Assembly (NCBI GenBank): GCA_022848835.1
Contig: JAJISG010000205.1
Location: 1-20,010 of the forward strand
Length of the DNA: 20,010 nt
Origin: Thermoplasmatota archaeon
GTDB lineage: Archaea; Thermoplasmatota; Thermoplasmata; RBG-16-68-12; JAJISG01
Reading direction: 5' to 3'
The position numbers and the translations under genes were made by a program. Positions 4,332 through 18,097 of the stretch are shown one piece after another. Below the pieces are notes generated by a model. It did not search any database, had not been told where the DNA came from, and was given only the letters and a program-made list of their open reading frames with translations. Numbering within the stretch: position 1 is the first letter of the stretch; every line of letters begins with the position of its first letter.

Positions 4332-4961
4332 TCAACGATTCTTGGCCACGATGTCGCTCAGGGTGTCGGCTACATCCTCACAGAAGTCCGTGGCCAGCTC
4401 CATCTTCTCGTAGATCTCCTTCAACTTGATCACGGTGATGGCGTCCTTTGTCTTGAAAAGGACTGCAATGGCCTCGTTCATTATGTCGTCGGCAATGTTC
4501 TCCAGCTTGTGCACATCGACTGCAAGGCTCTCGACCTTGCCTCCCTCCTCCCGCCTCTCAATCATGTCAAAGGCCTCGTGCAACTTCTTCACCGATTGGA
4601 AGATTACCTCCGCTAGCCGGCGCATCGCTTCGTCTGGTTCCTTCACCTGATAGAGCTCCAAACGGAGGACCGTGGCGTAGAGCATGTCAATGACCTCATC
4701 CAACTTGCTTGCCAGGTCCCTCAGATCCTCTCTATCTATAGGTGTGATGAAGGTCTCGTTGAGGGACTCGTGTACCTTGTGGACGATCCCATCTGCTTTA
4801 TGCTCAAGCTCCTTCATGGCCTTTCTCGAGGAAGATAGGGAATCATAGCTATCCATCAGATCCACCATAGCCTGAGCCATATCCCGGGCCACCACTGCCT
4901 CCTGCCTCAGCAAGGAGAAGAAGCTGATTCCCTGCTCCGTCTCAGAGGCTCTGAAGGTCAT
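4332..4961 (-). CDS. DUF47 family (PhoU-like) protein, downstream copy
   Basis: An all-helical protein of about 209 residues of the DUF47/COG1392 family, relatives of PhoU usually paired with phosphate transporters. PhoU-type ExxxD metal-binding patterns are visible: ELEHKADGIVHKV, KLENIADDIMNEA and EKMELATDFCEDVADTL. Such proteins bind di- or trinuclear iron or manganese clusters and are thought to control the partner transporter at the membrane. ATG 4961 is preferred because GGTGAT, a strong match to the 16S tail, sits 4 bases before it. GTG 4970 would overlap the upstream stop as GTGA. It is the last gene of the ABC operon. Family is firm; phosphate as the signal is inferred. Confidence 0.88.
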   Translation of the reverse strand: MTFRASETEQGISFFSLLRQEAVVARDMAQAMVDLMDSYDSLSSSRKAMKELEHKADGIVHKVHESLNETFITPIDREDLRDLASKLDEVIDMLYATVLRLELYQVKEPDEAMRRLAEVIFQSVKKLHEAFDMIERREEGGKVESLAVDVHKLENIADDIMNEAIAVLFKTKDAITVIKLKEIYEKMELATDFCEDVADTLSDIVAKNR

Positions 4962-4966
4962 CGAAA

Positions 4967-5638
4967 TCACCTACCCGCCAGGACGAGGATGAAGAGCTGA
5001 TCGGCAGCCTCCTTGGCCATGTCGGCGGCCACCTCGATCTCGTTCAGTATGTCCACCAGCAGGGTCATGGCTCTAGCATCGGGAGAGGAGCGAATGAGCC
5101 TCTTCTTGATCTCGAAAAAATGGCCATCGATCCTGTGCTCCAGTTTCTTCACCTCCTCCCTCCAGCTCAGCACTTTCCTCTCATCGCTCGCGAGGGCCTC
5201 CACAGCAGACCACAATGCCCTACACGTGTCCACCAGGTCCTTGCTCATTTCCTTGAAACTAGCCCAGAACTCCTTCGGAACACGTCTCTCCCACTCCAAG
5301 AGGAGCTTTAGGTTGAGGCCAGCCTGCTTCACATGGTCAGAAATGTCGTCAATTCGTCTCGCAAGCAGCATGAGGCTCTCTCTCTGTTTAGGCTCCAGAT
5401 CCCCCCTAGCGAGCGTTCGAAGGAGGTCCACCTCCAGGTTGTCGGCTGCCTTCTCGTTTATGTCCAGTCTCTTGAGAGCCTCAAGGACTCCCTTTCTGTC
5501 CTCCCTGAGACAGTATGCCAGGGCGTTGTCCATCTCAACCACGGCGTCCAGCACCTTCGATAGATGCTCCTTTAGTTGTCGAGTCGCTGTAGACTCCCGT
5601 CGCCTCGATAGCCATCCCGTCAATGCCCTGTCACTCAA
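4967..5638 (-). CDS. DUF47 family (PhoU-like) protein, upstream copy
   Basis: A second helical DUF47-type protein of 223 residues, clearly divergent from its neighbour. It keeps acidic-pair helices such as RRIDDISDHVKQAG, KLEHRIDGHFFEIKK and EIEVAADMAKEAADQL. The pattern EKAADNLEVDLLRTLARG near residues 62-80 is the usual first metal helix of the family. The likely start is TTG 5638, with GGAGG (within 5646-5656 on the minus strand) before it; it overlaps the stop of the ATPase gene by 8 bases, so translation is probably coupled. The two unlike copies may form a heteromeric pair. There is no PiT permease beside them, the usual DUF47 partner; an ABC importer stands in its place. Confidence 0.85.
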   Translation of the reverse strand: MSDRALTGWLSRRRESTATRQLKEHLSKVLDAVVEMDNALAYCLREDRKGVLEALKRLDINEKAADNLEVDLLRTLARGDLEPKQRESLMLLARRIDDISDHVKQAGLNLKLLLEWERRVPKEFWASFKEMSKDLVDTCRALWSAVEALASDERKVLSWREEVKKLEHRIDGHFFEIKKRLIRSSPDARAMTLLVDILNEIEVAADMAKEAADQLFILVLAGR

Positions 5639-6728
5639 GTTTCAACGCCTCCTCCAAGCCCTCGTAAGGCCTAGGGTAGATTAACATCTTCTCATAATCG
5701 AATTCAACAGTAGTGTCCTCTCCCACCTTAAACCTTTCATGAGTCAGGGGGACGTCCACTGAGACCCTCTCCTCAGTGGCGAGCCTGACGATGTACCTCA
5801 ACTCTGACCCCAGAAACCTTTCACCCTCCACGGTTCCCGGAAGTCCGTTGGGCGAGTAGCCCTTGCGAAGGTCTAGGTACTCCGGCCTCCACGCTAGGAC
5901 CACGGCCCTACCTACAGAATGCCGGCCGTCGGGAACCCACAGGTACTGCTGGTTCCGCAGGGCGACCAGGGCCCATTCATCCGCCCTCTTAGCGATAGAG
6001 CCTTCCAGGAAGTTGTTTTCACCGACGAAGTTGGAGGTGAAGATGTGTGCGGGGGATCGGTAGAGTTCTCTTGGGCTTCCCTCCTCCACGATACGTCCCT
6101 TCCTCATCACCACGACCCTGTCCGCCACGCTGAGGGCCTCCTCCTGGTCGTGGGTCACATGTATGGCCGTCAGTCCCAGGTCCTTCACCAGGGCCCGCAG
6201 CTGATATCTCAACTCTAGCCTGACACGGGAGTCCAGGGCAGAGAGCGGCTCATCCAGGATCAGGAGCTGTGCCCTATTAGCCAGAGCCCGAGCGAGGGCG
6301 GCTTTCTGCTGGGCCCCACCGCTCAGCTCCCTTGGGAAGAAGCGAGATTGGTCCAGGAGGTCCACAAGCCGCAGCACCTCCTTCCCGATGGAGCTAACCT
6401 CCTCCTCACCAAGACCGCGAACCCACGGACTATAGGTGGCGTTCTTCCAGACGGATAGATGGGGAAAGAGTACGATGTTCTGGAAGACGTATCCCAGGTC
6501 CCTGTCCTCCAGTAGCACAGGGACGACGTCCCGACCATCGACGAGGACCTCTCCTTCGGTAGGCGCCCAGATGCCGGCTATCATCTTTATCAGGGTGGTC
6601 TTGCCACAACCGCTCGGCCCAAGAACGGTTACATACTCACCGTCGTCAACCCTGAGGTCGACATCCTCCACGGCCACGATAGGCCCGAACCGCTTGGTCA
6701 CCCTTCGAAGCTCCACGAGCGGCATCAC
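5631..6728 (-). CDS. ABC importer ATPase (CysA/PotA-like) with C-terminal TOBE region, copy 2
   Basis: A 365-residue cytoplasmic ATPase that powers solute import. It has Walker A GPSGCGKTT (37-45), Q-loop Q83, signature LSGGAQQ (135-141), Walker B LLILDEP (155-161) and switch His193 in VTHDQ. Residues from about 235 on form a TOBE-like regulatory domain. All catalytic residues are intact. GTG 6728 is directly followed by ATG 6725, and the start overlaps the previous stop as GTGA. The CysA/PotA/FbpC group carries sulfate, polyamines, iron, thiamine or phosphonates, so the substrate cannot be read from this chain. Together with copy 1 it probably forms a heterodimer on the fused permease. Confidence 0.93.
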   Translation of the reverse strand: MMPLVELRRVTKRFGPIVAVEDVDLRVDDGEYVTVLGPSGCGKTTLIKMIAGIWAPTEGEVLVDGRDVVPVLLEDRDLGYVFQNIVLFPHLSVWKNATYSPWVRGLGEEEVSSIGKEVLRLVDLLDQSRFFPRELSGGAQQKAALARALANRAQLLILDEPLSALDSRVRLELRYQLRALVKDLGLTAIHVTHDQEEALSVADRVVVMRKGRIVEEGSPRELYRSPAHIFTSNFVGENNFLEGSIAKRADEWALVALRNQQYLWVPDGRHSVGRAVVLAWRPEYLDLRKGYSPNGLPGTVEGERFLGSELRYIVRLATEERVSVDVPLTHERFKVGEDTTVEFDYEKMLIYPRPYEGLEEALKLE

Positions 6729-7825
6729 TCCAGCTCCAGGGCTGCGGTCAGACCTTCAGGTGGAGGTGTGAAGATCAAGCCATACTCCCGGGGAAAGGAG
6801 AAGTGCACCCTCTGCCCCTCCCTTAGGTGCTCTCCCGCAGAGGAGGGCATCTTGACCTTGGCCTTGCCGAGGCGGTCCAGGGACACCTCGTAGGTGGTCC
6901 TCTTGCCCGCGAAGAGGGCCCTGAGGATGGTGGCCTCGAAGGTGTTCTCCCCCCCTTCCTCCCGTGAGATTACACATCGATCCACCTTGACTCCGAGAAC
7001 AACTGCGTCCCCCACCTTAGCCTGGGAGGGGGAGGCGGCGAGTCTCTGACCGGTTCTGAGCCCCACATAGGCGGTATCGCTCTCAACATCGACCACCGTC
7101 CCCTCGAAGAAGTTGGCCTCGCCGACGAAGTGAGCTACGAAGGGCTCCGCAGGCCTCTCATAAACCTCCCTTGGAGAGCTTATCTGCTTGATGCTTCCCC
7201 TTCGCAGTACGAGGATTCGATCAGCCAAGTTCAGGGCCTCTTCCTGGTCATGGGTCACGTGCAGCGTGGTGATGCCAAGTTGACTTGCCAGGTCCTTCAG
7301 CTCTCGTCGGAGCTCAATCCTCAAGCGTGCATCCAGGGCCCTGAGGGGTTCATCTAGGAGGAGAATGTCCGCATTGGCCGCCAGGGCTCTACCTAAGGCA
7401 ACCCGTTGCTGCATTCCGCCGCTGAGTTCCCTCGGAAAGGAATATCTCCTCGCGAAGAGACGCACCAGATCCAACATCTCCCTCCCGACACGCTCCACCC
7501 TCTCCGGTGTCCAACCCTGTACCACAGGGCCAAAGATAGCGTTATTCCAGACATTGAGGTGATTGAAGAGGGAGTAGGTCTGAGGCAGATAGGCGATCCC
7601 CCGCTCTTCTGGAGGAACCCCATCCAGAGACCTTTCATCGAGGTAGACATGGCCAGCGTCCTGATTCAGGAGGCCGGTTATGATTCTCAGGAGCGTGGTC
7701 TTCCCGGCCCCGGTCGGGCCTAGGATGACGATGTACTCCCCGTCCTCCACCTCCAGGTCGATTCGATCTAGGGCAACAACGTCCCTGAAGGTCTTGCGGA
7801 TTCCTTCGAGTCTCAAGCGCGCCAC
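6725..7825 (-). CDS. ABC importer ATPase (CysA/PotA-like) with C-terminal TOBE region, copy 1
   Basis: A 366-residue ATPase paralogous to the next gene. Walker A GPTGAGKTT (36-44), Q82, signature LSGGMQQ (134-140), Walker B ILLLDEP (154-160) and His192 are all present, so it should hydrolyse ATP. A TOBE-like region follows from about residue 235. It starts with GTG at 7825, whose G is the last base of the permease stop TAG, a one-base overlap (TAGTG). Both ATPases end in similar words (EGLTAALELE here, EGLEEALKLE in copy 2), pointing to an old tandem duplication. Having two different complete ATPases next to one double permease suggests each pairs with one permease half. Confidence 0.93.
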   Translation of the reverse strand: MARLRLEGIRKTFRDVVALDRIDLEVEDGEYIVILGPTGAGKTTLLRIITGLLNQDAGHVYLDERSLDGVPPEERGIAYLPQTYSLFNHLNVWNNAIFGPVVQGWTPERVERVGREMLDLVRLFARRYSFPRELSGGMQQRVALGRALAANADILLLDEPLRALDARLRIELRRELKDLASQLGITTLHVTHDQEEALNLADRILVLRRGSIKQISSPREVYERPAEPFVAHFVGEANFFEGTVVDVESDTAYVGLRTGQRLAASPSQAKVGDAVVLGVKVDRCVISREEGGENTFEATILRALFAGKRTTYEVSLDRLGKAKVKMPSSAGEHLREGQRVHFSFPREYGLIFTPPPEGLTAALELE

Positions 7826-9549
7826 TATCTGGCCCTCCGGGTGATGTATCTCATGAGAAGCATAGCCGTTGCGGAGACGGAGATGAGAACCGTTGTTGCC
7901 AAGGCCGCTGCATAGAAGTTCTGTTCCTCCAGGATGAGGTTGACTATGTATACAGGCGCGGTGATGATGGCCTCCCGGCCAGCCACGGCCAGAGTAGCCC
8001 CTGTCTCCCCCACGCTCCGGGTGAAGGCCATGATGGCCCCCGCGAGGATAGAGGCCTTGATGATGGGAAAGGTTACCCTTCTAAAGCTCTGAAGAGGCCT
8101 AGCCCCGAGACTCCTGGCTGTCTCCTCCATCGCTGGGTCGAGTCCCTCAAGGGCCCCCGTCACGTTTCGCACAACGAAGGGGAAGGTGAAGGCTACGTGG
8201 GCGAGGGTTACGATGAAGAAAAGGGACGGGACGGGGACCAGTCTCTGTTGGGTGAAGAATAGGCTGAGGGATATACCTAGAGCAGCGCTGGGCACGATGT
8301 AAGGGACGTTGACCAGAACATCCATAGCCCGGCCGAGCCGCCTCATACCTCCGCGAACGATGAAGATGGCCATTGGTATACCGAGGGCCAGGTCTATCGC
8401 CGTTGCCACTCCCGCAATCATGAAAGAGAAGTAGATGCTCCGGTAGAGGGTGTTCCACTCAATCGGCTCAGGTGACCCGACAAGTAGGAATCCTATGAGG
8501 AAGAAGGAGGGAATGAGAACCAGGAAGATGAGGAAGAAGAAGGTGGCCCCATCCCTTATACGGGGGGCGATGCCCCTGCTCAGCCGCTTCTCCCACGTGG
8601 GAAAGATCCTCTTCATCGGTATCCTGGCTCTCATGGTCAGGATCTTGACGACAACAAGAAGGGCTAGGGCCGAGACGATCATCAGAATGGCCACTAGGGC
8701 GAGACCAGCGGTGAACTCGCTGGACTGGCAACCCGCAACATCAGACAGCGTCTTCCATGCGGCGATGAGGGCGGTGCCGTTGAGCTCTCCTTCGGCTCGG
8801 CAGTCGGCCGTGTTTACGCCAAACTTCCCGATTGTAGTTAGGGCCGTCACCACTCCCCCGGTATCGCTCAGGGCCTTGGCGAGAACTAGAGTGGCTCCCG
8901 TGGCGATGCCAGACCTGAAAAGGGGAAGGGTCACCGTCCTGGTCGCTGTCAGTTTACTGGCGCCAGAAGCCCTGGCCGCTATCTCGTAGTCGATGTCTAT
9001 CTCCTTCAGTATCGCTGACAGAGAGCGGACCATGTATGGGAACGTGGTGGTGAAGTGCAGGAGGATGAGGATGAGGAGCCCACTGGAGACGAGCCCGAGA
9101 GATCCAAACGGCTTGAAGTCTAGGAAGGGCGTTACGCCCCAAAAGAGGGCCACTGAGAATCCGAGACCGGCAGTGGGGACTGCGAGGGGCGAGTCAATCA
9201 GGGTATTCAGGAGACTCTTTCCCCTGAAAGCCCTCCGAACAAGGAACCAGGCCAGGGGGAGTCCAAATACCAGGTCCACCAGGGTGACAATGATGGCCGT
9301 TTGGTATGACAGGAGGATGGCGGACCCTATAGTACCTAGAACCTCAGGCCGGGCCGACAGGAGGCCCTGAATGGCCTGCCAGCCGGTGAAAACGAAAGAG
9401 AGAACAAAGAGGGTGGGGAGGAGTACTAGGAGAAAGAAGTACAGCAGGACAGCCCCGTACCAGGTGGCAATGATGGGGCGCCTCGAGAGGAATGCGAGCA
9501 ACCTCTGGCTGAGTCTTCTGTTTCTGGTATCCCCCTGACCCTCACGCAA
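7825..9549 (-). CDS. Fused two-domain ABC transporter permease
   Basis: A 574-residue membrane protein made of two BPD-type permease domains in tandem, about 12 membrane helices. Each half has an EAA-type coupling loop: EIAARASGASKLTATRTVTLP (about 189-209) in the first and EETARSLGARPLQSFRRVTFP near 480-500 in the second. The fused layout is that of ThiP- and FbpB-like permeases. The first half carries an extra stretch of about 40 residues after its coupling loop with two cysteines (NTADCRAEG and VAGCQSSE), probably outside the cell and able to form a disulfide. The upstream-most start is TTG 9549; a TTG at about residue 17 is an alternative. It heads the operon. No solute-binding protein gene is next to it. 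Confidence 0.92.
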   Translation of the reverse strand: MREGQGDTRNRRLSQRLLAFLSRRPIIATWYGAVLLYFFLLVLLPTLFVLSFVFTGWQAIQGLLSARPEVLGTIGSAILLSYQTAIIVTLVDLVFGLPLAWFLVRRAFRGKSLLNTLIDSPLAVPTAGLGFSVALFWGVTPFLDFKPFGSLGLVSSGLLILILLHFTTTFPYMVRSLSAILKEIDIDYEIAARASGASKLTATRTVTLPLFRSGIATGATLVLAKALSDTGGVVTALTTIGKFGVNTADCRAEGELNGTALIAAWKTLSDVAGCQSSEFTAGLALVAILMIVSALALLVVVKILTMRARIPMKRIFPTWEKRLSRGIAPRIRDGATFFFLIFLVLIPSFFLIGFLLVGSPEPIEWNTLYRSIYFSFMIAGVATAIDLALGIPMAIFIVRGGMRRLGRAMDVLVNVPYIVPSAALGISLSLFFTQQRLVPVPSLFFIVTLAHVAFTFPFVVRNVTGALEGLDPAMEETARSLGARPLQSFRRVTFPIIKASILAGAIMAFTRSVGETGATLAVAGREAIITAPVYIVNLILEEQNFYAAALATTVLISVSATAMLLMRYITRRAR

Positions 9550-9902
9550 CTTCTAACCGCCAGGCGTCGCTAATTGAAACCAAGTTAAATCGTTTGTGTG
9601 GATGCTCTAGACAGGGTGCAATCACCTCATCCCCGATCCGCCACAACGCAACGGCAATTGAATCGCTTCTCTCTCACAGTTCTGGAGGGCCATCCCATAG
9701 CTCACAGCAGCATAACTCCCCTTCATCGAATTCCACACTTTTTCCTCTTTCTATTATCGGCTAAAACACCTCCGTGCCGATTCATAAGGGCTCCGGAAGG
9801 AGTTTTCCGTGCATAACTTTGTCAGGGATATGACTATATAGTCTATGAAGATACAGCTTATGGTTTGATAAATAGTCAGAAACTATGGAGACGAGGGTCG
9901 TT
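9550..9902. promoter_or_regulatory. Divergent control region between the ABC operon and the AbrB-PhoU gene
   Basis: About 350 bp without a credible gene; the 72-codon frame at 9598-9816 has low-complexity composition and no family resemblance. On the minus side a TATA-like GATTTAAC (about 9584-9593) lies some 40 bp before the permease start. On the plus side there are the palindrome GACTATATAGTC (9832-9843) and a TATA-like TTTGATAAATAG (9863-9874) ahead of the AbrB-PhoU gene. The stretch 9720-9790 is T-rich but shows no strong hairpin. Confidence 0.6.
9832..9886 (+). promoter_or_regulatory. Two ACTAT/ATAGT operator-like palindromes
   Basis: GACTATATAGTC at 9832-9843 is a perfect 12-bp palindrome that also contains a TATA-like core. 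A second inverted repeat of the same half-site, ATAGT (9872-9876) and ACTAT (9882-9886) with 5 bases between, overlaps the second TATA-like box and the upstream ATG 9885. The shared half-site suggests one dimeric regulator binding twice, possibly the AbrB-domain protein encoded next. Confidence 0.5.
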
Positions 9903-10904
9903 ATGGAAGCTCGCAAAGTTCAGATAACCGGTGGATCTACGTACACTGTATCCTTGCCGAAGCACTGGGCCAAGAGCATGAATCTTAAGCAGGGGGATAT
10001 GATCTTCTTTGAGCCTCTGGAAAATGCGCTCATACTTCGCACCGAGCAGAGGGAGAAGAAGGAGCCTCGCACCAAGGTTCTTCACATCGAGAAAGGGGAG
10101 CGACGTGAACATGTGGTCCGTAAGCTCATAGGTGCATACGTCACTGGGTACCAGTTTATCGAGCTCCGCTTCGGGTCCAGTGAGGCCGCAACTGCAAGAA
10201 GAGCTGCTAGGGAATTCTCGCGGATGGTCATAGGTGCAGAGGTCGTGGAGGAGACGGGGGGAAGGGTTCTCATCCAGGATCTCGCTAACCCCATGGAACT
10301 CTCCCCCGACAAGTGTCTACGACGCATGTACATGACTGTCCGGTCCATGGCTGAGGACTCGATTGTTGCTTTGAAGGCAGCGGATCCAACGCGAGCGGAG
10401 GATGTACCCCCCCGAGATCAAGATGTCGACCGCCTATACTGGATGGTCGCCAAGCAGTACCATCTTGCCGTAACTGACCCCAGCTATATGGTCACCTACA
10501 GCCTTCGCGGAAAGCTCCACCACTTCCGCACCGTTGCCAAACTTCTAGAAAGAGTTGGCGACCATGCCGAGAAGATTGCCCTGGCGGTAATCCAGCTAGA
10601 GGGGGAGGACCAGGATGATACATTTCTCGCCAAAGTGGACGGGGCCGTTCACCTTGCGCTAGGGATACTGGAGAAGGCCTTTACAGCGCTGATGGCAGAA
10701 AATATGGACATGGCCAACGAGGCCTTGGATGCTTGGGAAACGCTCTACCTGACAGTTGAGGAGCTTACTCAGGAGGTGAGCGGTGCGCCAGGCCCGCGAC
10801 TACTGCCTCTGGCAACCATCATGGATAGCATCAGTCGAATAGGAGGCTACGCCTCCGACATAGCTGAGGTCGCGATAAACAACGTCATCAGCCAAGAGGA
10901 ATGA
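9903..10904 (+). CDS. AbrB-domain / PhoU-domain regulator
   Basis: About 333 residues. The N-terminus (MEARKVQITGGSTYTVSLPKHW) is the swapped-hairpin SpoVT/AbrB DNA-binding fold seen in a common archaeal group of PhoU proteins. From about residue 120 two PhoU helical repeats follow, with acidic patterns such as LLERVGDHAEKIA and SRIGGYASDIAEVA. In this family the protein probably joins phosphate sensing to gene control. ATG 9903 is preferred because GAGGG lies 5 bases upstream and family members begin with MExRKVQ. ATG 9885 would add six residues. It is transcribed divergently from the ABC-DUF47 operon, which makes it the obvious candidate regulator of that operon and of itself. Confidence 0.9.
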   Translation: MEARKVQITGGSTYTVSLPKHWAKSMNLKQGDMIFFEPLENALILRTEQREKKEPRTKVLHIEKGERREHVVRKLIGAYVTGYQFIELRFGSSEAATARRAAREFSRMVIGAEVVEETGGRVLIQDLANPMELSPDKCLRRMYMTVRSMAEDSIVALKAADPTRAEDVPPRDQDVDRLYWMVAKQYHLAVTDPSYMVTYSLRGKLHHFRTVAKLLERVGDHAEKIALAVIQLEGEDQDDTFLAKVDGAVHLALGILEKAFTALMAENMDMANEALDAWETLYLTVEELTQEVSGAPGPRLLPLATIMDSISRIGGYASDIAEVAINNVISQEE

Positions 10905-15764: not shown

Positions 15765-15801
15765 CATCTTTATTCGAGCTGTCGGCTTGCTCTTCCGGAG
15801 G
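15765..15801 (+). promoter_or_regulatory. Promoter and ribosome-binding site of the transporter gene
   Basis: A TATA-like CATCTTTATT (15765-15774) is followed by GGAGG at 15797-15801. TTG 15808 lies 6 bases after GGAGG, the best supported start for the next gene. Confidence 0.5.
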
Positions 15802-15807
15802 CGATCC

Positions 15808-17148
15808 TTGCCCGAAACATATGTGATGGCGATATTCGCTGCAGTCATGATTCTCACATATATTGGCATCGCCTATGAGCGGATTCACAAGACCACGGCT
15901 GCTCTTCTTGGAGCAGGAACTGCCATCCTACTAGGCGTCTCCCTTGGGTTGTTCCCTTATGGTACTGTGTATGACGTGCTCAAGGACGACCTCAATATCA
16001 TTGGGGTCATCGTGGGCACGGGGATCTTGGTCGGTATCACTTCCCGGTCGGGTCTCTTCCAGTTCATAGGGATCAAGATTGTAAAGGCCACTGGGGGAGA
16101 CAAGATTCGCCTCTTCCTGTACCTGAACCTCCTGACCTTCGTCTTCGTTAGCTTCCTCACTATCGTCCCGTCGATGCTCATCATCGTCTCCCTTACCCTC
16201 GTGGCCTGTCGGGTCTTGGAGTACGACCCGAAGCCCTATCTGATTAGCGAGGCCATAGTCGCCAACTCGGGGGCACTGACCACCTACGCCAGCAGTCTGC
16301 CGAACCTCATCATCGGTACCGCAGCCGGCATACCATATGTCCAATTCCTCCTGGTCTCTGCCCCTTTCGCCTTCATCAGTTTCGCCTTGGCTTATGGCCT
16401 CCTGCGTTTCTTCCTACGTCGAGACCTCGGGCAGAAACCCTCCACCACGAGCCTACAGGAAATGCGAGAGAGGGTGGAGAGGTTCGATGAGTGGAGCGTG
16501 GTGAGGGACAGGACCTTCTTCCGTCGGTCCGGAGTCATCCTACTGGGCACTATCGTTGGCTTCGCTGTTGCCCCGCAGTTCGGTATCGGGCTGGACTTCG
16601 TTGCACTGATGGGAGCAACGGCTGCGCTTCTCCTGTCGGGAATAGACACTGACAAGGCTATTAAACAGGTCAACTGGGCGATAGTCCTCTTCTTCGTGGG
16701 GCTCTTCACAATCATCGCTGCAGTGGAGGCGTCTGGATTGCTGGAGGTGGTCGCCCTAGCGATCACAGATCTCACGGGTGGGGGTCCCATGGCAACCCAG
16801 GGTGTCATCCTATGGTTCTCCGCAGGGGCCTCTGGCTTTGTGGACAACATCCCAGTATCCGCCACGATGATCCCGATAGTATCGACGATGGGGCAGGCAG
16901 GCCTGAGCATGGACCCCCTGTGGTGGAGCGTTATCATCGGGTCCAATCTGGGCGGAAGCATTACGCCCATCGGAAGCATCAGCTGTGTCATTGCCCTCCA
17001 TTCCCTGGAGACTGAGGCCGACACCCGTGTCTCATGGCCTGAGTTCATCAAGATAGGCGGAATCATAGTAGCGGTCCAGATGGTGGTCGCGACCGCGTAC
17101 CTTTTCCTGCTTAGTACCTTCAACATGATACCTACCATACCAGGGTGA
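15808..17148 (+). CDS. ArsB/NhaD-superfamily ion transporter
   Basis: An integral membrane protein of about 446 residues with 10-12 hydrophobic helices. It belongs to the ion transporter superfamily that includes NhaD Na+/H+ antiporters, arsenite pumps and citrate or dicarboxylate carriers. Two re-entrant-type motifs are visible: ANSGALTTYASSLPNLIIGT in the first half and SGFVDNIPVSATMIPIVS then GSNLGGSITPIGS in the second. These repeats bind the substrate in the family. The substrate could be sodium, an anion or a carboxylate. TTG 15808 is chosen because GGAGG precedes it by 6 bases; TTG 15787 and ATG 15826 are alternatives. The USP gene begins 4 bases after its stop, so the pair is surely co-translated. 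Confidence 0.85.
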   Translation: MPETYVMAIFAAVMILTYIGIAYERIHKTTAALLGAGTAILLGVSLGLFPYGTVYDVLKDDLNIIGVIVGTGILVGITSRSGLFQFIGIKIVKATGGDKIRLFLYLNLLTFVFVSFLTIVPSMLIIVSLTLVACRVLEYDPKPYLISEAIVANSGALTTYASSLPNLIIGTAAGIPYVQFLLVSAPFAFISFALAYGLLRFFLRRDLGQKPSTTSLQEMRERVERFDEWSVVRDRTFFRRSGVILLGTIVGFAVAPQFGIGLDFVALMGATAALLLSGIDTDKAIKQVNWAIVLFFVGLFTIIAAVEASGLLEVVALAITDLTGGGPMATQGVILWFSAGASGFVDNIPVSATMIPIVSTMGQAGLSMDPLWWSVIIGSNLGGSITPIGSISCVIALHSLETEADTRVSWPEFIKIGGIIVAVQMVVATAYLFLLSTFNMIPTIPG

Positions 17149-17152
17149 AGAG

Positions 17153-18097
17153 ATGGAGCTGGGAAAGCGGGACGTGGAGAAGATTGTGGAGGAGCAGGTA
17201 GAGGCCTTTGAGGAGGCCCTTCTCGAACGCGTGAGGCTCGTGGAGCCCACCCCTAGGACCATCCTCCTCGCTCTAGACCACTCCGATCAGGACTCGATGG
17301 CGACAAGTTTGGGGGCGGAGATCGGCCGCAGGCACAATGCCGTCATCGCCGTCACTGGTGGCTTCCCCGATGAGATGGAGGAGGAGGCCAGGAGCTATCT
17401 GTCCGAGGCTAGCCACCGCCTCAGGGAGGAGGGGATAGATGCCAGGACGCTCTGGGCGCCGGAGAAGAAGTCCTTCGACAAGATTCTGTGGGCCCAGAGG
17501 GAATCCGGGGCGGACATACTGATCCTTCCGGCCCCGTACTTCAGGGATATTGAGACTCTCGGCGAGGATAGCATTGGCACGAATCTGGATGTTATCTTGG
17601 CACGATCGCCGATTCCAGTCCTCGTCATTAGAAATCCAGGCCCTGAGCCTGAAGAGGTGCTGGACCGTATCCATCTGGCGATTTTTGACCACACGCCTCC
17701 GAGCCAGGCATCTGCCGAGTGGGCCATCCTCTTGGCAGGAGGGGGCCGCATGGACGTCCTCGCCCTCGTGGAGGAGGAGTTGGTGGAGATGATGGAAGAG
17801 GCCCTCGTCTCCGAGGGGATCACGGAGGAGGATCTCGAGGAGGGGCTCATTCGCAGTCTGGTGCCTCTCGTATCCGCTGTACTCCGCCGATGCGACGATG
17901 CGGATATCCCGTGCGATGTGGACTACGTGACGGCGGACCTGGTGGATACGATCACCAGGCGGGCGGGAAGGAGGCGGGGGATGATCGTCCTCAGGGGATA
18001 TGAGGCTCGCGACAGACCTGGGGAGAAGGTCGCCCGAGAGGTCATCCTGCGCTCTAGGGCACCAGTCATGGTCGTGAAGGAACCCACCAGGTCGTAG
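17153..18097 (+). CDS. Tandem universal stress protein (USP) domain protein
   Basis: A 314-residue soluble protein with two USP-like halves. The first (about 33-158) has the strand RTILLALDHSDQDS, the long middle with GADILILPAP, and the end SPIPVLVIRN. The second (about 168-312) has IHLAIFDHTPPSQAS, GMIVLRGY and RAPVMVVKE. The ATP-binding glycine pattern G-x2-G-x9-G is not clear in either half, so nucleotide binding is uncertain. An N-terminal acidic helix (1-30) precedes. It follows the transporter by 4 bp, and USP proteins are often encoded beside transporters, where they may act as a cytoplasmic gate or sensor. Its 3' end is only 19 bp from the convergent mat gene. Confidence 0.82.
   Translation: MELGKRDVEKIVEEQVEAFEEALLERVRLVEPTPRTILLALDHSDQDSMATSLGAEIGRRHNAVIAVTGGFPDEMEEEARSYLSEASHRLREEGIDARTLWAPEKKSFDKILWAQRESGADILILPAPYFRDIETLGEDSIGTNLDVILARSPIPVLVIRNPGPEPEEVLDRIHLAIFDHTPPSQASAEWAILLAGGGRMDVLALVEEELVEMMEEALVSEGITEEDLEEGLIRSLVPLVSAVLRRCDDADIPCDVDYVTADLVDTITRRAGRRRGMIVLRGYEARDRPGEKVAREVILRSRAPVMVVKEPTRS

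Follow-up and report, generated by a model that had tools for sequence, protein, structure and literature searches.

The window analysed here, a 20,010-nucleotide stretch of contig JAJISG010000205.1 from a Thermoplasmatota archaeon, contains an operon that probably encodes an ATP-binding cassette (ABC) importer of phosphate, one distinct from Pst, PiT and NptA, in which a DUF47 protein would serve as the built-in gate. At its core, a fused permease (PERM), two ATPases (ATP1 and ATP2) and one DUF47 protein (D47b) form a widespread and tightly conserved archaeal module. The context and distribution of these genes make phosphate the best-supported substrate. An earlier note, made from the sequence of this DNA, had proposed an oxyanion importer with PhoU-superfamily partners of its own; our results support that proposal and narrow it to phosphate, and the operon matches no described system that we found.

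A conserved archaeal module with its own DUF47 protein

Five genes lie on the minus strand between positions 4332 and 9549. PERM (7825-9549) is a fused two-domain ABC permease, similar to CysT and ModB, in which Pfam recognises two BPD_transp_1 stretches. It is followed by ATP1 (6725-7825) and ATP2 (5631-6728), ABC ATPases that each carry a TOBE_2 domain and in which the Walker A, signature, Walker B and H-loop motifs were all judged by eye to be intact. This combination of a BPD_transp_1 permease with TOBE ATPases, seen by Pfam, is the one expected of a type I ABC importer. The last two genes encode DUF47 (PF01865) proteins, D47b (4967-5638) and D47a (4332-4970), which exceed the gathering cut-off of 24.4 bits with 75 and 97 bits respectively; no further DUF47 gene was found in the assembly, which measures 1.46 Mb and is 94% complete. 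Against the TIGR00153 equivalog D47a and D47b score 54.9 and 64.8 bits, below its curated cut-off of 104.3. Read from D47a back to PERM, successive genes overlap by 4, 8, 4 and 1 bases. The gene positions given in the earlier note are borne out, and Pfam confirms that two unlike DUF47 proteins are present.

A permease profile scan yielded 80 named loci, the best 80 of 111, and some labels refer to the same assembly (L030 and L078, L042 and L081, L044 and L122, L048 and L151). Sixteen loci end at a contig edge before the D47b position, leaving 64 uncut, and D47b directly follows ATP2 in 62 of these. By a strict measure (same strand, within 60 bases of ATP2) D47b fits in 58 loci, of which 51 show an ATP2/D47b overlap of exactly 8 bases; the other four (L083, L088, L140 and L150) were assigned by reading, as D47b adjoins ATP2 on the same strand with an unsure start, the frame opening further up or down. 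The two exceptions are L141, where D47b is divergent and stands before PERM, and L116, where it is not local and is found on the same chromosome at 276 kb (L041), adjoining a gene read as PCNA from its length and place. About 544 kb separate D47b from PERM-ATP1-ATP2 on that chromosome, which could reflect an inversion or an assembly error.

The PERM-ATP1-ATP2-D47b arrangement is seen in records of Thermoplasmata, Methanomassiliicoccales and Heimdall/Hodarchaeota, and because it recurs across these archaeal groups it is far beyond chance. We also sought D47b in 61 genomes, namely the window's own (G000) and 60 relatives; it was matched in 24 of them, at 78 bits or above in 20. A profile search covering 5.8 billion proteins, with 8000 candidates scored, gave 54 relatives of D47b at an E value of 1e-20, and those with a named source come from Thermoplasmata or Methanomassiliicoccales. 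The order permease-ATPase-ATPase-DUF47-DUF47 had been singled out earlier as one to look for in archaeal genomes. Its core, with one DUF47, recurs and is not peculiar to this contig, while the double-DUF47 end appears only in the window and in L030 (L078), a relative from the same family, among the loci examined. One further locus, L045, looks damaged or mis-assembled: the frame before ATP2 (6814-8142) holds a TOBE domain and the end of ATP1 alone, and no separate PERM frame was found there, though the ATP2 and D47b frames are full-length.

Two kinds of DUF47 protein

The DUF47 proteins were placed in a tree of 40 of 112 rows picked for spread, with adjacency to PiT derived by hand from coordinates. 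In this tree 19 module D47b proteins make up one clade (support 100/97), and five ABC-linked D47a proteins nest inside the PiT-adjoining DUF47 group (99/92 fork); a smaller tree, built from 20 rows, gives the same placement of D47a. Homologues of D47a adjoin PHO4 in L050-L052, L188-L204 and L206. Module loci place D47a differently: it comes after D47b in L030 as in the window, and ahead of PERM in L042, L044 and L049; the other module loci examined yielded none. D47a is an accessory add-on of the PiT-linked type, and D47b alone belongs to the core. The two therefore do not make the fixed pair that the earlier note had taken them for, as only one is a core component and the other is found in few loci at varying positions. 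Two separate captures of D47a are favoured by the tree without significance (approximately unbiased test, p 0.080 and 0.067), and a candidate D47a remnant in L079 is weak (34% over 53 residues, E value 7e-4); neither was retained.

The predicted structure of D47b has a PhoU fold (predicted local distance difference test, pLDDT, of 90). All 12 PDB matches to the model with an E value of at most 0.001 are DUF47 or PhoU entries, with 2olt first and 3l39 giving a template modelling score of 0.82. Sequence relatives with a solved structure are 2iiu/2olt and 3l39 for D47b, and 3l39 for D47a, whose fold is assigned by sequence alone. The acidic residues E62, E69, D97, E167, D171, E202 and D206 of D47b are invariant in 16 of 16 sequences; these residues and the predicted fold are what bears on the metal-cluster regulators suggested in the earlier note. 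PhoU proteins bind metal clusters, and PhoU acts on the Pst ATPase. Because D47b so regularly follows ATP2 directly, the two offer a simple pair for testing PhoU-like gating of an ABC motor.

Genomic context and the transported substrate

In the taxonomic order of the window's genome (37 genomes), we counted as module genomes those in which D47b reached at least 100 bits or PERM an E value of 1e-40 or less. PiT is present in 0 of 17 module genomes vs 17 of the 20 others (P 9e-8, kinship ignored), and the three genomes with neither module nor PiT (G016, G021 and G025) have PstA over cut-off. Every cell has to take up phosphate, yet 13 of the 17 module genomes yielded no PiT and no PstA over cut-off. 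G000 itself gave no PiT gene, no TIGR00974 (PstA) match over cut-off and no PF12849 match, and PstSCAB is not recognised there. A system for phosphate export or sensing might also do without a binding protein, of which the three families searched gave none, and have PhoU-like partners. We consider this highly improbable, as the permease and the TOBE-bearing ATPases are of importer type and organisms that have the module but neither PiT nor PstA must still get phosphate into the cell.

A second line of evidence comes from the gene divergent from PERM. On the plus strand at 9885-10904, Pfam identifies a protein with MazE/AbrB and PhoU domains, in agreement with the earlier description of a third PhoU-superfamily protein at this place; its sequence relatives include Aquifex PhoU (1t72) and 4q25. 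Relatives of AbrB-PhoU are present in 52 of the 61 genomes. When the 48 best matches were compared with matches to PF12849 (PstS-type), leaving out the window, G023, G031 and G057, 24 lay within 2 kb of a PF12849 match. All 24 were divergent from it, and they include all 16 top-scoring AbrB-PhoU matches (47-50% identical). The distance to the PF12849 match is 255-630 bases, and the gap in the window is 335 bases, with PERM occupying the place of PstS. Because these distances run to the edge of the profile match and not to the gene start, the true AbrB-PhoU/PstS gaps are shorter, and we dropped the idea that the window's gap equals the Pst gap to the base.

Pst genes and the module also meet directly. 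In L120 and L045, two loci that D47b shows to be closely related, the module has a Pst operon on its divergent side; Pfam verified PstS and the permease in L120, and PstS and PhoU in L045. AbrB-PhoU directly follows D47b in L120, L123 and L129. In L079 (3125-12118), AbrB-PhoU is divergent from PstS, which is followed by a permease, PstB, PhoU, PERM and, at the contig end, ATP1; PstS was identified here by Pfam, and the permease, PstB and PhoU frames by BLAST or by eye. Loss of the Pst genes from a row of this type could yield the layout of the window. The L079 record is labelled Bathyarchaeota, and because its PERM is 56% identical to that of the window the label may be wrong. In G001, a genome of the same family as the window's, an AbrB-PhoU relative with two in-frame stops lies on a contig other than that of the module (C64, 16806-17216). 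Polyphosphate kinase (PPK1) and Ppx/GppA lie upstream on the same strand in one of the 80 named loci, L048 (L151).

In the mechanism that we favour, PERM would provide both membrane halves in one chain, and ATP1 and ATP2 would act as a heterodimeric motor. D47b would be a dedicated cytoplasmic PhoU-like partner, made along with ATP2 and restraining the motor at high cell phosphate, the action generally ascribed to PhoU on Pst and to PitR on Pit. D47a, a DUF47 of PiT type, may have been acquired from a PiT system that the lineage has since lost, and the divergent AbrB-PhoU protein, elsewhere often a neighbour of Pst operons, may govern transcription of the operon. Phosphate would be moved inwards, possibly with no binding protein involved.

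Several observations weigh against phosphate import as the role of the module. Across the class (400 genomes), PiT is present in 20 of the 91 genomes with D47b at 100 bits or more, vs 192 of the 309 others, so exclusion is a trait of the window's order and some other families and not of the class; a universal mutual exclusion of PiT and module was thus rejected. G000 has a Na_Pi_cotrans (PF02690) homologue of 385 residues with a weak score of 56 bits (L207, 2621-3778), which leaves room for a phosphate importer there other than the module. PF02690 is matched in 6 of the 61 genomes, and among these only G000 and G001 carry the module. One genome, G058, shows no PiT, no PstA over cut-off, no PF02690 and no D47b, which indicates that an unrecognised phosphate importer can exist. 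Most of the compared genomes are drafts. The other 24 of the 48 AbrB-PhoU matches are not near PF12849: ten are in genomes with no match, five are far away on the same contig and nine are on other contigs. PERM is nearest by profile to sulfate and molybdate permeases, a phosphosugar mutase lies within 6.5 kb of PERM in 41 of the 80 named loci, and a nucleotidyl transferase was read upstream of the module in 6 of 13 loci (Pfam on one).

The PERM profiles bear on whether the module imports molybdate, tungstate or sulfate, with DUF47 recruited for that purpose. The best-scoring profiles are CysT, sulfate permease and ModB, and among solved structures PERM is best related to 3d31 and 2onk, permeases for sulfate/molybdate and molybdate/tungstate. 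No PF13531 or PF12849 match was found in G000, and so no classical binding protein for molybdate, tungstate or sulfate is seen. PERM does not reach the equivalog cut-offs, with 173.3 of 246.1 bits for CysT, 166.7 of 182.6 for ModB and 146.2 of 340 for WtpB, and among the matches listed it falls below the cut-off in every one of 25 NCBIfam models (of 29). The top-scoring models for the ATPases are PhnT2/PotA. Import of another oxyanion would leave the PiT/Pst pattern in the window's order unexplained, and the partners seen are of phosphate type: a PiT-type DUF47, a Pst-linked AbrB-PhoU, Pst genes adjoining in L120, L045 and L079, and PPK/Ppx in L048. We therefore regard this alternative as unlikely.

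The mutases and transferases could instead point to transport of a phosphorylated sugar, or to a part in nucleotide-sugar and glycan synthesis, in place of inorganic phosphate transport. A nucleotidyl transferase and a phosphosugar mutase do flank many Methanomassiliicoccales loci. This flank is not seen in loci of the window's order, where the modules of the window, L030, L036, L042 and L044 are flanked by SRP54 and/or PCNA and that of L037 by other genes, and phosphate-type partners recur in separate lineages. There is little to recommend a role in sugar metabolism over phosphate import, and we give it only a very small chance.

Binding proteins, known systems and surrounding sequence

Type I ABC importers as a rule need a binding protein, and none is seen in the operon of the window. 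PF12849, PF13531 and PF13416, the three families sought genome-wide, gave no match in G000 or in the module genomes G002, G003, G007, G008, G012, G015 and G017, of which G007, G012, G015 and G017 are less than 90% complete. When module loci were queried with the binding proteins of relatives, leaving aside the L072 query, whose frame turned out to be a permease, only PstS-type proteins were found, and these belong to the adjacent Pst operons of L045, L120 and L079. The earlier note had raised the case of relatives carrying an operon binding protein with a known, unrelated substrate, and no such protein came to light in these queries. Upstream genes of 290-450 residues were also considered as binding proteins, and those scanned or read are SRP54 or nucleotidyl transferases. 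The predicted structure of PERM is helical with one small hairpin and has no extra soluble or binding domain (pLDDT 80). Some relatives of about 760 residues (e.g. L036, 4980-7247) have an fn3-containing insert of some 190 residues after the first membrane helix, which the PERM of the window lacks.

A phosphate importer could use a binding protein of an unrecognised family encoded elsewhere, or PstS where Pst is present, as it is adjacent in L120 and L045. This differs from our favoured reading in one step and is compatible with it. The general need of type I importers for such a protein speaks for it, as does the restriction of the genome-wide search to three families, and the eight module genomes with no match and the purely PstS-type yield of the locus queries speak against; we rate it a serious possibility, a little short of an even chance. 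If no binding protein is used, the module would be an unusual type I importer. A literature search found no paper on ABC importers that work without one.

Like PstSCAB-PhoU, the operon joins an ABC importer to a protein of PhoU fold whose gene stands at the operon end and, as beside many PstS-type genes, it has a divergent AbrB-PhoU gene. Unlike that system, it has a fused permease, two unlike ATPases, no PstS and DUF47 in place of PhoU, and the best-scoring models are CysT for the permease and PhnT2/PotA for the ATPases. It shares with PiT-DUF47 systems the DUF47 branch to which D47a belongs, but the transporter is an ABC importer and no PiT gene was found in G000. CysTWA, ModBC and WtpBC include the nearest profiles and solved relatives of PERM, but PERM is below their cut-offs, no PF13531 binding protein was found and the partner is a DUF47 protein. 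ThiP and PhnU2 likewise join two membrane halves in one chain; against their models, however, PERM scores just 49 of 821 and 74 of 593 bits, and the module has two ATPase genes and DUF47.

In marine Thaumarchaeota, according to PMC9239043, Pst and Pit-DUF47 substitute for one another next to phoU, which resembles our case in that alternative phosphate importers interchange at a PhoU-gene locus. The partners in that case are known importers, whereas the newcomer here is the DUF47-ABC module. According to a recent survey of 926 bacterial genomes (PMC13170248), each PhoU-like family is tied to one importer family, and three regulator-importer pairs are described; the words archaea and DUF47 do not occur in its main text. 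This rule of one importer per family would not hold for a DUF47 clade tied to an ABC importer. The bacterial PitR is probably a DUF47 protein. Archaeal polyphosphate genes are covered in PMC6864096. No description of the module was found in the titles and abstract openings listed from open-licence literature on DUF47, PhoU, Pit, AbrB or the host groups. We tentatively suggest, at somewhat less than even odds, that the module is a fourth phosphate pairing beside PhoU-Pst, PitR-Pit and NptA. It would then be an ABC importer of archaea that has a DUF47 clade to itself and operates free of a binding protein, and in the window's lineage it would have displaced both classical importers and adopted the DUF47 of PiT and the AbrB-PhoU of Pst.

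The divergent intergenic region holds a 12-base palindrome (9832-9843, core CTATATAG) that lies 41 bases before the AbrB-PhoU start and is a candidate operator or TATA element. Each of the 11 AbrB-PhoU/PstS regions examined (of 24) has at least one CTATAG or CTATATAG, several of these regions being near-copies; L120 has four and L045 two. We do not claim a proven operator because the single copy in the window's region has a P of 0.061, the related loci are kin and close copies are rare upstream of PERM (2 of 78 named loci, against 5 of 1500 random stretches). Further along the window, at 15787-18097, a transporter of the CitMHS/ArsB family is followed by a Usp-family protein of 314 residues. 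Read from sequence, the Na_Pi_cotrans gene of G000 is flanked by Usp-like and sulfite-exporter-like genes.

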